A DNA stretch of 64,000 bases from Geoalkalibacter subterraneus (GTDB lineage: Bacteria; Desulfobacterota; Desulfuromonadia; Desulfuromonadales; Geoalkalibacteraceae): positions 2,997,001 through 3,061,000 of the forward strand of contig NZ_CP010311.1 of assembly GCF_000827125.1 (NCBI RefSeq), written 5' to 3'. The notes beneath the pieces are model-generated. The model was not told the DNA's origin, did not search any database, and saw only the letters and a list, made by a program, of their open reading frames with translations. Of this stretch, positions 34,555-41,510 are shown in pieces (the stretch's first letter is position 1; each line of letters opens with the position of its first letter). The translations under genes and the position numbers were made by a program.

Positions 34555-34836
34555 TCAGACGTAGAGCATCTTGCGCGTCATACCGCCATCGATAACCAGG
34601 TTTTCACCGGTGATGAAATCATTGGCCGGATCGGCCAGAAAAAGTGCGGCGCGCGCAACATCCTCTTTTAAAGAAAGGACTTCGCCCAGGTGCATACAGC
34701 GCTGCTTCGCCTGCTCCAACGCCTCGCCGTCACAATCCACCATCGCAACCCGCATTCCTGCCCGCAGAAACGCCTCGCTAATGGCGCGCCCGATCCCCTG
34801 CGCGCCGCCGGTGACAAGAGCCACTCTTTTCGCCAT
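34555..34836 (-). pseudogene. Internally deleted short-chain dehydrogenase (SDR remnant)
   Basis: 93 residues against about 250 in the family. The N-terminal half is a normal Rossmann start (VALVTGGAQGIGRAISEAFLRAG, then VAMVDCDGEAL) and the last 35 residues are the normal SDR end (EDVARAALFLADP, ITGENLVIDGGMT). About 150 residues between them are missing in frame near residue 50 (about 34685), including the NAG motif and the catalytic Ser and YxxxK. A good ribosome site (GGAGGATTTAA) and an open frame remain, so a stub protein may be made, but it cannot be an active dehydrogenase. Confidence 0.75.
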
Positions 34837-35021: not shown

Positions 35022-37454
35022 TCAGTACCGCCCGAACTCGTCGTCATCGAGATCGATTTTGGGAGCCCCTTTGTCAGTGGTGTTTTGCGGGCGGTCTTTC
35101 CTGTCGGGCTGAGGCGCGGGGATAGCCCTGGATGGAGATTTTTTTTGACTCTGAACCCCGCTACTCTCCTGATTGTCGAGACGGAACTGCTGCAGCAGGC
35201 GGCGCAGTTCTTCAGCCTGGCTGGAAAGCTCTTCCGCTGCCGCGGCGGACTCTTCGGCGTTGGCGGTGTTCTGCTGGGTGACCTGGTCGATCTGACCCAG
35301 CCCGGTGTTGACCTGCCCGATTCCCTCGGCCTGCTCCTTGCCCGCCGCGCTGATCTCGGCCACCAGGTCGGAGACCTTGCCGATGCCGCTGACGATCTCG
35401 TTCAGAGCGGTGGCCGTCTCGCCGGCGATCTCCACCCCGTTGCGGGTCTTGGCCACCGAACCTTCGATCAGGTCTGCCGTCTCGCGCGCCGCCTTGGCGC
35501 TGCGGGCGGCGAGGTTGCGCACCTCTTCGGCCACCACCGCAAAACCCTTGCCGTGCTGTCCGGCGCGCGCCGCTTCCACCGCCGCATTCAAGGCCAACAG
35601 GTTGGTCTGGAAGGCGATCTCGTCGATGGTCTTGATGATCTTGGAGATATCGCTGCCGGCGCGGCTGATTTCGTCCATCGCCTCGGTCATGGCGCTCATG
35701 CGCTGCTGGCCCCGCTCGGCGGCGGTGCGTGCCTGGCCGGCCACCTGGTCGGCCAGGCCGGCGTTGTCGGCGCTTTGCTTGGTCTGCGCCGCCATCTCGT
35801 TCATGGAGGCGGAAATCTCCTCCAGGGAGCTGGCCTGCTCGGTGGCTCCCTGCGACAACGACTGGCTTGAATCGGCCACCTGGGAAGCCCCGGAAGCGAT
35901 CTGGTCGCCAGCCGTTTTGACCTGGCCGATAATGTTTCGCAGGTTGTCCACCATGCGGGTCAGAGCCCTGCCCATGCCGTCTGAATCCGAAACCACGACC
36001 ACCTGCTGATTCAGGTCGCCTTCAGCAATTGCCAGGGCCACTTTTTCGCGATCTTCGACCACCTGGGCCAGGGCGTTTGTCATGGAGCCAAGCTCCTCAA
36101 GCTCATCCCGTGCAGCGAAGGCCTTGCAGTTGCGGCAATCTTCACCACGCTGGGCCCGTGGGCAGTGCTTGACTGCTGCAAAAGATCCCGATTCGACCCA
36201 ACAGACACTCTCCTTGCCGTAACTGGGGCAATCGGGTTCGCTGCAGTTCATAATCTGAGAGCAGTTCACAGCCTTACCGGCCGGAAGGCGCTCAGACACA
36301 TCGCCCTTTGATATTTTTTCGATGACGCGCACCGTATTGCGCAGCAGACGGGTGATGTGCCCGGTCACCAGGAAAATGACCCCGCACACGACAATTACCA
36401 ACCCAGCTCCCCCTGCGGCTGTCCCATAGGTGAGATTCTTCAGGGTCGCCTCGCCCTGCGAGACGATGTTCGCCAGCATTGCCTGCCCTTCGGTCACATC
36501 CTGGGCCATGACCATGACACCGACAACCTCTCCTGCGTAATCGCGTACCGGAAAGGATGCCACATAATATTGCCCCTGCTCCTGGAAGAAAGGGCCCTGG
36601 GTACCACGGCGCAGCAGATCAAGATCGATCAGCGGGTCAGTCACTGCTGGATCGGTCGCTGCTGCGAAGACAAACTCACCTCCGACACGCGGATACTTTG
36701 TTTCATCCTTCATGCGGGTCGCTACCGAAAGCAGGTCCTGGTTCATATAAAGCGCATAATACTGGTTTTCATCGGTGCGGGAAACTTCAAGAAATGAATC
36801 CATGGATAACAGAAATTCATTGGAACCCAGATGTCTGCCGTCCGGCGCAGTAATAGGCATCAATCCACGCACCACGAAACCGGCTCGCCCGACTTCGATT
36901 CCGCTCAGCGGCTGGTGAGGAGCGCGATTAATGCGTACCACTGTTTCGCGAAATGGCGAGATATCATCGGAGATATCGATCCGACTGCCGTTGCGTGTGG
37001 TCTGCCAGCCATCACGCCACAACCGGACCAGGCTGCGGCCGTTAGGCAGATGGAAATGCAGTTGATAGCCCCCTTTGCCGAGAGCGTCGTAGCCTTCAAT
37101 CATCGGTTTGAAGACTTCCCGCAGCATTTCGCGTGCAGCCTGACTCTGCGGTGAGGCTTCGTCGTCCATATTGCCGGAATGGGCAAACTCGTAAGCTTCG
37201 ACCACTTGCGGCATGCGACTGACCGGAGCAGCCTGCTCGAGAGCCTTCTGCCCCATGCGTTCAATATTGGCATAAATCTCTTCGATCTTGGACTCCGCGG
37301 CGCTCTGTACCGAACGGTCTAGTATCTGTTCGGCATTCTCGACCTGGCGGGTGACCAGGTTGCGCAAACTCCACTGCAGTGCAAAGTACCCGGCCAGACA
37401 GGTCAGAACCAACGTCAGGGTTACGGGAACCAGAAATTTGTTTCTGATTTTCAT
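35022..37454 (-). CDS. Methyl-accepting chemotaxis protein with Cys-rich linker
   Basis: 810 residues from ATG 37454 (AGAGGTGAGCG upstream; an in-frame TTG at 37472 overlaps that site). Helix 1 (about 4-24), a large periplasmic double-cache-like sensor to about 345, helix 2, HAMP, and a C-terminal methyl-accepting domain with the hairpin tip [21 protein letters not shown]. Between HAMP and the signalling domain is a run of about 50 residues with nine cysteines (for example [10 protein letters not shown] and [13 protein letters not shown]), a likely metal or Fe-S site. It ends with a soluble tail after the coiled coil. The ligand is unknown. Confidence 0.9.
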
Positions 37455-37499
37455 ACGCTCACCTCTGTGCAAAAAATTAAACGAAACTTAACATTTTCT

Positions 37500-37531
37500 C
37501 TATAAAAATTCAATAAATTTAATTTTTATAG
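37500..37531. repeat. AT-rich inverted repeat upstream of chemoreceptor
   Basis: CTATAAAAATT and AATTTTTATAG are perfect 11-base arms with a 10-base AT spacer, between the stop of the truncated receptor and the start of the next receptor. It could be an operator or promoter-proximal hairpin; nothing in the window shows what binds it. Confidence 0.6.
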
Positions 37532-39118
37532 TTTAACCCACAGAAAAGGGCACCTGAAAATCTCAGGTGCCCAGAGGATTACCTCGGCCTGCTCTTTGCC
37601 CGCCGCGCTGATCTCGGCCACCAGGTCGGAGACCTTGGCAATGCCGCTGACGATCTCGTCCAGGGCTGTCGCCGTCTCGCCGGCGATCTCCACCCCGTTG
37701 CGGGTCTTGGCGACCGAACCTTCAATCAGATCCGCCGTCTCGCGGGCCGCCTTGGCGCTGCGTGCGGCGAGGTTGCGGACCTCTTCAGCAACCACCGCAA
37801 AACCCTTGCCGTGCTGTCCGGCGCGCGCCGCTTCCACCGCGGCGTTGAGAGCCAGCAGGTTGGTCTGGAAGGCGATCTCGTCGATGGTCTTGATGATCTT
37901 GGAGATATCACTGCCGGCGCGACTGATTTCGTCCATCGCCTCGGTCATGGCACTCATGCGCTGCTGGCCCCGCTCGGCGGCGCTGCGCGCCTGTCCGGCC
38001 ACCTGGTCGGCCATACCGGCATTGTCGGCGCTCTGCTTGGTCTGCGAGGCCATCTCGTTCATGGAAGCCGAAATCTCCTCCAGGGAGCTGGCCTGCTCGG
38101 TGGCCCCCTGTGACAGCGACTGGCTCGAATCGGACACCTGGGAGGCCCCGGAAGCGATCTGGTCGCCGGCTTCCTGAACCCGCCCCAGCACCTGGTTGAG
38201 ATCTTCGCTGACTTTTTTAAGAGAGTTCCGAATAACGTCTCTTTCATCATGAGGCGTCACCTCGAAATCGAGATCCCCATGGGCCAGTTTTTCAAGATTG
38301 ACGACGATCTCGTTCTGCAGGGTATCCGCGAAGCTGTCAACGGCCTGACCCATCTGGGCGATTTCATCATTGCCGTTCATATTCAGGCGTTCGCTGATAT
38401 GGCCATGGCCCAGTTCACGCATGATCTCCACTAACCGCTCCAGGGGACGGCGGATCCAGCGGCCCAACAGCCAGTAAACGCCAAAGGAGGCAATCAGCAA
38501 TCCCCCGAGACCGGTCATGACGCCGGTCGTAATACTCTCGGAGCGTGCCGACTGCAATGCGGCGGCTATCTCGTCCTGACTCTCGAGAAACTTGTCAAGA
38601 CTGTAACGCACGAACAACACCCCGGCGACGCTGCCTTCTTCCACGTCAAAGTGACACTCGAGGCAGCGCTCTTCCATGATGTGAGTGCGCGACAACAAAA
38701 TCGCTTTACCTTCGTCGAGCTCCTCCACCGGCTGGTTTTGACCCCGAACAGGCTTAAACGGCAGACGGGAACCGAGAAATTCCTCATGGCTGGCGTAATT
38801 GACCTTGCCGGAGGGGTCAGTCAGACCAACTTCTATCACGCCAGGGACTTCTCCCAAGCCATGGAGAAGCTCGGCGAAAATATCCATTTCACCGCGTTCC
38901 AGCGACCCCTCGGTGCCGACCTCAAGGCTGGTAAAAACGCTGTGAGCCTGGTCAAAAGCGGCTTCGCGCAGCTCCTCCAGAGAATGCTCGCCGTTTTTCT
39001 CAAGCAATGCGGTACTGCGCACCGTGCTGATGGTGGTGGCAACGCCGAAAACCACCGCGAGAACCAAAGCCAGAAAACAACCGACCCTGACCTGAATACT
39101 GTTCAGCTTACTCCCCAT
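37526..39118 (-). CDS. c-type-heme chemoreceptor, C-terminally truncated
   Basis: 530 residues. A first helix (about 10-32), a periplasmic domain of about 160 residues, a second helix near 195, HAMP and a methyl-accepting domain. The periplasmic part holds RCLECHFD: Cys152, Cys155 and His156 form a CXXCH heme c attachment site, as in periplasmic heme-sensing receptors known in Geobacter. The signalling domain is almost identical to that of the neighbouring receptor until EQAE, after which about 65 expected residues are replaced by 17 unrelated ones read through a terminator hairpin. The returning coiled-coil helix is therefore short and signalling is probably impaired. ATG 39118 has GGAG seven bases upstream. 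Confidence 0.88.
37543..37572 (-). terminator. Terminator hairpin read as codons by the truncated receptor gene
   Basis: GGGCACCTGA and its exact complement (37548-37557 and 37563-37572) with a five-base loop and, on the minus strand, TTTTC. The receptor reading frame runs straight through it and stops 17 bases later. Confidence 0.85.
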
Positions 39119-39241: not shown

Positions 39242-41359
39242 TTACGAGATCAATCGTACCGAAACATCATCCTTCAGCCTGAACCGCTGCAGGAGTTGTC
39301 GCAGATAAGCCGCCTGGCTGGAAAGCTCTTCGGCCGCCGCCGCAGACTGTTCGGCGCTGGCGGTATTCTGCTGGGTGACCTGGTCGATCTGACCAAGCCC
39401 TGTATTGACCTGTCCGATTCCTTCGGCCTGTTCTTTGGCTGCGGCGGAAATCTCCGCCACCAGGTCGGATACCTTGTCCACCCCGAGAACAATCTCCTTC
39501 AGGGCGGATTCGGTCTGTTCCGCGATTTCGGTGCCGCGCGCGGTTTTGCTGACCGTTCCTTCGATCAGGTCAGCCGTTTCAGATGCCGCCCGGGCGCTGC
39601 GTGCCGCCAGATTGCGCACCTCCTCCGCGACAACTGCGAAACCTTTGCCGTGCTGTCCGGCGCGCGCCGCTTCCACCGCCGCATTGAGGGCCAACAGATT
39701 GGTCTGAAAAGCGATTTCGTCAATGGTCTTCAAAATTTTGCCGATATCGCTGCCGGCCTGGCTGATTTCCCCCATGGCGGCAACCATAGCCGCCATCTGG
39801 TGAGAACCTTTTTCCGCGGCCTTGCGCGCTTCGCCGGCAAGCGCATCCGCCTGGCCGGCATTTTCTGCACTCTGCTGGGTCTGTCCCGCCATCTGGTTGA
39901 CCGAAGCGGAAATCTCCTCCAGGCTGCTGGCCTGCTCGGTCGCGCCCTGTGACAACGCCTGGCTTGAGTCGGCCACTTCGCCGGCGCCGGTTGCGATCTG
40001 ATCTCCCGCGCTCTGAACCTGCCGCACCAGATCGTTGAGATCCGTCCCCAGCTTTTTAAGAGCGCCCCGAATCACATCTTCATCGTCACGGGGAACGGCT
40101 TCAAAATCCAGATTGCCCTCCGCAAGCTTGTTGAGCGGCTCGACAATTTCATGTTGCAGGTTGTCAGCCAGCTCATCCATGATCCGCCCCATCTCGCCCA
40201 GCTCGTCCTTGCGCGAGAGATTGAGACGTTGCTTGAGGTGGCCGCGCTCGATGTCGCGCACCATATCCATGACCTGCTCGATGGGCGCCACGGTGCGGCG
40301 GGCAGACCACCAGGCAAAAAGTCCACCCAGCAGCATCAGCACAGCAGCACCCGCGGCAATAAACGTATTCATGCGGTTGAAGGAGCCGGCGATCATCGTG
40401 CTTGCCATCTGAATCTGAGAGAACGGCACGCTGACACCAATCACCCAGTCCAGCGGTTCGAAGTAGAGCGCGTGTACCATCATCTGCTCCGCCTCGCCGG
40501 TGCGCGTATTGTCGAAACGAAAACTCAGGTCGACAGGTTCTTTTCCAGCTGCTTTTCCCTTCTCGACAATTTCCTGGATATACGCCACTCCATCGGCATC
40601 TCGCAGCCCCCAGCCATTGACACCCGTTTTGCTGCCCCCGGGAGAGATCATGTACTTTCCGCGGTTCTCTCCAGCCGCACTCAGGGCCCAGAAATATCCG
40701 CCGTCACCAATCGAGATCGACTCCATGCGTTCAACGAGCCTGTTCCATTCCCGAGCTTCACCCACTTTGTCATAAAGGGCTTCGAGTTCATCGACGAACA
40801 CCCCGGGTGCGATGATCAGGTCAAGAGGTTCGAAATAGCGGTAATAGACGGCTTTGTCCCTTTTGGCGGTCACCGCATGGTAGGTAATAAAGCCCTCTTT
40901 GAGCTCACGCATGGTGTCGATATGAGCAGAACCGGAAAGGTCCTTTCCTTCGCTTTGGGGATGAATGGTGAGCACCCCGTCGCTGTTCATGCCGAAGGCA
41001 TAGCCGCTTTCGGCAATTTGCGGAGCCAGCACCACCTCCCGCAACGCCTCTTCGACCTCATCGGCCGGCAGCGCGTCGTATGTCTGTGCCACGCGGTGGT
41101 GGAGATCATCGGCGATGGCCCGCAGATAGCTTTTCACCGCGGTGTTGCGCTGCTCCTTCTTGGCAGTGAGGTAAAGATCGAGCAGATCGATGGTTCCCTC
41201 CAGCAGATGATCCAGATCCGCATCGACCAGCCTTTCTGCCTGTACGTCCGCAATTTCCTGAGTCTGCCGGCTGAAAAAGCTGGTCAGCGCCAATGCCACC
41301 AGAAGCGGCAGTGCAACACTGGTCACGATGATCAATAGCTGTTTGTATTTGATAGACAC
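39242..41359 (-). CDS. Methyl-accepting chemotaxis protein (dCache type)
   Basis: 705 residues from GTG 41359, which has CAGGAGG seven bases upstream; nine in-frame codons lie before it. Helix 1 (about 7-28), a periplasmic cache sensor ([33 protein letters not shown]-like region, [18 protein letters not shown]), helix 2 near 335-358, HAMP, and a full methyl-accepting domain with the conserved tip and a C-terminal run [13 protein letters not shown]. Cache domains of this kind bind small carboxylates or amino acids in studied relatives; the ligand here is unknown. It has no Cys cluster or CXXCH. Confidence 0.92.
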
Positions 41360-41510
41360 GACAACCTCCTGAAAAATTTTTAACATTAAGTATATTTATT
41401 GATCATTGATGTCAACTAAATTCGCTATAAAACCGTTTGTTTTACAACAGAATGGGAGCTAAGACCCTGGACTGAAAGACAAGAAAGAGATCGAAGGAAT
41501 TCGAAGAAGG

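Follow-up and report, generated by a model that had tools for sequence, protein, structure and literature searches.

How does a chemoreceptor gene come to run through a transcriptional terminator before it reaches its own stop codon, and what product could such a gene still give? The metal-reducing bacterium Geoalkalibacter subterraneus raises this question in a window of 64,000 nucleotides (the whole stretch of DNA analysed here), where three chemoreceptor genes, MCP3, MCP2 and MCP1, lie in series on the minus strand. The positions of these genes and of the features within and around them are:

39242..41386, minus strand: MCP3, upstream chemoreceptor with a dCache_2 sensor; linker and pentapeptide eroded
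37526..39118, minus strand: MCP2, truncated chemoreceptor of 530 aa, with sensor, HAMP domain, signalling domain to EQAE and an 18-residue foreign tail
37583..38170, minus strand: stretch of the MCP2 signalling domain (AGDQIA...KEQAE) that recurs in MCP1 with 93% nucleotide identity
37526..37582, minus strand: foreign 3' tail of MCP2, 18 residues and stop; junction GAGG/AATC
37548..37572, minus strand: intrinsic terminator hairpin, 10-bp perfect stem and 5-nt loop, followed by TTTTCT; 5' of the MCP2 stop codon
37455..37547, minus strand: AT-rich, promoter-like stretch separating MCP1 from the hairpin; family relatives have a collinear segment between MCP3 and MCP2
35022..37454, minus strand: MCP1, intact downstream chemoreceptor; ATG at 37454, longest open frame from a TTG at 37472
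35325..35912, minus strand: counterpart in MCP1 of the stretch at 37583..38170
34555..34836, minus strand: remnant of an SDR gene, 93 aa compared to 246 aa in the relative G004; a synteny marker that lies directly 3' of MCP2 in relatives

Reading frame and domain matches lay MCP2 out as a periplasmic sensor with a CxxCH heme-c motif, followed by a HAMP domain and a signalling domain that reaches to EQAE. The heme-attachment motif, CLECH, occupies residues 152-156, and CxxCH is kept in all 12 homologues examined; by this motif, MCP2 is a putative periplasmic heme-c type chemoreceptor. A PDB search with the MCP2 sensor gave no significant match to any chain. Functional analogues among the heme-c chemoreceptors are GSU0582 and GSU0935 of Geobacter (PMC3460858).

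Upstream of the junction, the gene contains neither stops nor frameshifts and has normal receptor sequence up to KEQAE. Beyond that point, 18 foreign residues and the stop codon are coded across a hairpin with the sequence GGGCACCTGA-GATTT-TCAGGTGCCC, whose perfect stem is oriented for the receptor strand. The hairpin has a predicted folding energy of -20.2 kcal/mol, and is flanked by a T-run on the receptor strand only; no other perfect stem of at least 10 bp with a T-rich tail occurs on either strand of the window. The stop codon (37526-37528) follows about 16 nt beyond the T-tract and closes the 530-aa frame. The observation that MCP2 runs through a perfect terminator hairpin, as a sequence-only reading of this DNA had proposed, is confirmed. 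The hairpin is single-copy in the genome, and a repeated element (REP, integron site or IS end) was rejected as its source, as it is unique genome-wide at up to 3 mismatches.

The protein encoded by MCP2 ends in ...LWVKL and has no aromatic C-terminal pentapeptide (xZxxZ). The Pfam MCPsignal profile (PF00015) matches it with E=2.2e-47 over positions 3-157 of 172, and covers positions 3-172 in the neighbouring receptors. The hairpin tip of the signalling domain is retained with its sequence intact, while a complete antiparallel coiled coil and the C-terminal methylation helix are absent: the C-helix stops at EQAE, and about 50 coil residues are gone. In full-length relatives, about 50 further C-helix residues follow EQAE, then a linker, and the protein closes with EFGRY or EFGKY. 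As 100 residues follow EQAE in MCP1 and 104 in the G004 orthologue, the deficit amounts to about 100-104 residues instead of the approximately 65 estimated earlier; about 50 of these belong to the returning coiled-coil helix and about 50 to the linker with the CheR-type pentapeptide EFGRY. The second methylation helix of this receptor family lies within the lost helix. EFGRY fits the xZxxZ pentapeptide used in CheR/CheB tethering (PMC7390727), and Geobacter receptors with an xF/YxxF/Y pentapeptide have been described (PMC2577667).

A query consisting of the MCP2 sensor and HAMP domain was searched against 58 relatives and then against 277 genomes of the class, drawn from other genera. About 50 class-level homologues were found, all with open frames of at least 567 aa except one of 312 aa (in G025), which is cut by a contig end; none of these homologues displayed a truncation of the MCP2 kind. 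The MCP2 orthologues are 53-57% identical over 317 aa. Those of G001-G004, full-length heme-c chemoreceptors of Desulfuromonadales, are like MCP2 in their CxxCH periplasmic sensor, HAMP domain and MCP signalling domain, but differ by a complete C-helix and, in the genes of this locus, by a linker and an EFG[RK]Y pentapeptide. The gene order in the family (G004, G003, G001) is hydrogenase genes, MCP3, MCP2, SDR (or directly phoB), phoB. MCP1 is an extra gene here, placed between MCP2 and the internally deleted SDR gene, and judged by this gene order it most likely occupies the slot that is filled by the heme receptor in relatives. The SDR gene itself is shortened in frame, with its N- and C-terminal parts retained and its middle lost.

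MCP1 is composed of a dCache_3 sensor joined at AGDQIA to a signalling domain of the family type, a linker and an EFGRY pentapeptide. The earlier claim that the signalling domain of MCP2 matches that of its neighbour up to EQAE holds, with downstream MCP1 as the best neighbour (97% identity in amino acids, 93% in nucleotides) and upstream MCP3 well behind (78% and 74%). The 93% identity extends from AGDQIA to EQAE and drops to background level beyond both edges. None of the five family genomes has the dCache_3 sensor, whose homologues in other families are 37-47% identical, while in a tree the MCP1 signalling domain clusters with that of its own MCP2 (support 98/90), apart from the MCP1-sensor orthologues. 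A sensor from outside together with a signalling domain that groups with the family therefore indicates that MCP1 is a hybrid. Trees of the 48-aa piece after EQAE were too short to resolve. The EFGRY tail was considered as proof that MCP1 holds the old 3' end of MCP2, but is weak evidence because five MCP1-sensor genes of family f8 have similar EFGRY-like ends.

MCP1 further carries a Cys-rich insert beside a weak HAMP match (36100-36300, minus strand). This part matches receptors of G045, G056 and G049, and the sensor matches other genes; by these matches MCP1 may be a three-way mosaic. A search for a plasmid donor gave generic receptor matches only. At the end of MCP3 (39242-39290, minus strand), linker and pentapeptide are lost, and GATGATGTTTCGGTACGATTGA resembles a frameshifted relic of the relatives' DDEFGRY codons.

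The DNA that starts with the hairpin and reaches to MCP1 is collinear with what lies between MCP3 and MCP2 in G004, with hairpin, T-run, AAATTAAATTT, TTGAA, GAAAA and TAAGTTT in the same succession. Over this short AT-rich stretch, the alignment scored 56; dinucleotide shuffles gave 28 ± 5, and none of 1000 scored as high (z 5.6). The corresponding segments of G001 and G003 aligned with z 3.0 and z 2.0; seven other receptor-upstream intergenic segments, serving as controls, reached z 1.8 at most, and the regions upstream of four MCP1-sensor orthologues 1.9 at most. Significance belongs to the collinear whole only, as the hairpin part aligned alone was not significant (z 2.2 at best). In G004, the stop codon of full-length MCP3 lies 22 nt before the aligned hairpin, so that the full-length gene ending just before the same hairpin, which the earlier reading had named as proof, exists in analogous form. 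The alignment with the relatives' intergenic segment suggests that the hairpin is probably a native receptor terminator, and that hairpin and promoter most likely originate from the array itself, as terminator and promoter between two receptors. A foreign terminator brought in together with the MCP1 sensor had been favoured first, as the MCP1 tail matches the MCP2 orthologues and the sensor is foreign; this was set back by the alignment to the native intergenic segment.

The MCP1 promoter region also contains an operator-like 11-bp inverted repeat, CTATAAAAATT/AATTTTTATAG (37500-37535), which was not seen in the aligned segment of the relatives. The MCP2 promoters of relatives (L063:12044-12203, L064:926-1138) harbor a sigma-28-like TAAA-N16-GCCGAAAA; the copy of this MCP2-type promoter in G. 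subterraneus has AGAGAAAA at the -10 place, as opposed to the relatives' GCCGAAAA.

These findings suggest, with a probability of roughly 0.7, that the 3' end of MCP2 was removed by a rearrangement within the array of adjacent receptors, in which a break would have joined the signalling domain at its EQAE codons to the native inter-receptor terminator. As to the route, we infer a partial tandem duplication followed by sensor replacement at a little short of even odds. Here, the stretch from terminator through promoter and heme sensor to the signalling domain at EQAE would have been copied, with the first copy ending at the terminator of the second; the second copy would have retained the original 3' end and later acquired, through recombination, a dCache_3 sensor reaching to AGDQ. 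Truncation and doubling of the signalling domain would then stem from one event, one fewer than a deletion needs, and the 93% identity does start exactly at the sensor boundary and stop exactly at the junction. MCP1 also sits in the exact heme-receptor slot of the relatives, between terminator-promoter and SDR, with a signalling domain and tail of the family type. However, the 7% divergence speaks for an old event, later conversion being possible, and a second terminator-promoter copy, expected upstream of MCP2 under duplication and deletion alike, is not clearly recognisable in the MCP3-MCP2 intergenic segment of G. subterraneus itself (z 1.3). The simple deletion between coding region and terminator that was proposed from sequence alone, to which we give clearly less than an even chance, would have a full-length MCP2 standing directly upstream of the terminator beside an existing MCP1 and losing about 330 bp from EQAE to the hairpin. 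The full-length receptor ending so close before the hairpin in G004 fits with this, as do the illegitimate look of the junction, where similarity is confined to GAGG/AATC, and the other losses nearby (MCP3 linker, SDR), but a deletion requires a prior duplication that placed a heme receptor upstream of the terminator-promoter, plus a sensor swap. What stands of the original proposal is that receptor sequence was joined to a receptor terminator; its simple deletion is unproven, as a partial tandem duplication gives an identical junction.

Routes other than these two are less likely. It is rather unlikely that a foreign block of terminator, promoter and dCache_3 sensor was inserted into the MCP2 signalling domain by single-crossover recombination, which would have left the old 3' end of MCP2 on MCP1. 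Such an insertion would explain why the MCP1 sensor is missing in the family and found in distant ones, and why MCP1 has a family-type signalling domain and tail and the SDR gene downstream. The terminator-promoter, however, is like the native MCP3-MCP2 intergenic segment and unlike the regions upstream of the MCP1-sensor orthologues, and therefore only the MCP1 sensor looks foreign. That the junction stems from a collapse or mis-join of near-identical receptor genes in the assembly, the refutation foreseen at the outset, has a nearly negligible probability. The two 588-bp segments are 93% identical and lie 2.3 kb apart, but the 43 differences between them are scattered, the junction and hairpin sequences are unique, and the mean read of 4.8 kb exceeds the repeat length. 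The genome, that of strain Red1, is a finished PacBio assembly with 250x polishing and correction by Illumina data at 100x (PMC4357744), which makes an assembly collapse unlikely.

With the rearrangement as the preferred reading, we asked what became of the gene. On the MCP2 branch, 15 changes were synonymous and 3 non-synonymous, the latter conservative, where 71% non-synonymous changes are expected without constraint (p ~3e-6; only differences that could be polarised with eight outgroups, with codon 107, TTG/CTC and leucine in both cases, counted as synonymous). The sensor branch of MCP2 is overall not longer than those of its relatives. MCP2 does not show the relaxed coding constraint by which a pseudogene is recognised. 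The synonymous excess therefore indicates that, during most of the period after the two copies diverged, it did not decay unchecked; this constraint may partly predate the truncation, and may say less about the truncated form if the truncation came after the duplication.

In the product, sensor, HAMP domain, hairpin tip and the region contacting CheA/CheW would be retained. It would lack the last approximately 50 residues of the C-helix, among them the second methylation helix, as well as the linker and the pentapeptide for CheR/CheB. With the terminator lying 5' of the stop codon, any mRNA terminated there would be non-stop and become a substrate of tmRNA, the gene for which is present in the genome. 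Readthrough, or termination suppressed by translation, would yield the 530-aa protein with its hydrophobic tail, and translation across the hairpin could weaken termination. A non-stop MCP2 mRNA and impaired adaptation would be the consequences; by either path, the yield of stable protein with a functional adaptation region is expected to be low.

In arfA and brfA, too, the stop codon is preceded by an intrinsic terminator or a hairpin, and ArfA gains a hydrophobic end upon readthrough (PMC8012679). A terminator kept in frame as a regulatory device of this sort, which would tie receptor output to tmRNA activity, seems highly improbable for MCP2. Its layout, with the terminator before the stop, a hydrophobic tail, tmRNA in the genome and a conserved truncated copy, does resemble that of arfA and brfA; however, it occurs in one genome only, and a chance stop is expected about 20 codons past the junction, in a frame not built for such use. 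Furthermore, arfA and brfA encode small ribosome-rescue factors with a conserved layout, whereas that of MCP2 arose from a rearrangement in one lineage. Improbable, too, is that the truncated heme receptor, devoid of second methylation helix and CheR tether, is retained in working order with an output that is fixed and does not adapt, its abundance being governed by the terminator in the frame and by tmRNA.

Incomplete receptors can still signal in some dimers, as Gardina and Manson reportedly observed in 1996 for dimers of Tar that had only one cytoplasmic domain (cited in PMC4692393); those were engineered heterodimers, whereas MCP2 is without the distal C-helix only, and in every subunit. 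A truncated chemoreceptor with a new role has a precedent in Tls, a truncated Trg of E. coli B2 strains that was once called a pseudogene (PMC12623472). Like MCP2, Tls lost part of the gene and gained a short new sequence, but it lost the sensor half and retained part of the cytoplasmic domain, whereas MCP2 retains sensor and tip and lost its 3' end.

Overall, the locus reflects the ordinary kind of remodelling in a receptor array, although its end product is unusual. It illustrates how tandem arrays make new receptors, with the shared signalling domain as the recombination platform, sensors added at its edge and 3' ends lost. The seemingly conserved truncated MCP2 offers a natural test of a chemoreceptor that has neither the second methylation helix nor the adaptation tether. 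It would equally test the fate of an mRNA with a terminator before its stop codon. In genomes of genus g2 (L065, L068, L073), second heme receptors occur at other loci, and a hemerythrin-like domain replaces the pentapeptide at their ends. In genus g3 (L067, G002:C9), a hydrogenase gene is followed by the heme receptor and then MCP3, the reverse of the order in g2, which may be read as another sign of array reshuffling.
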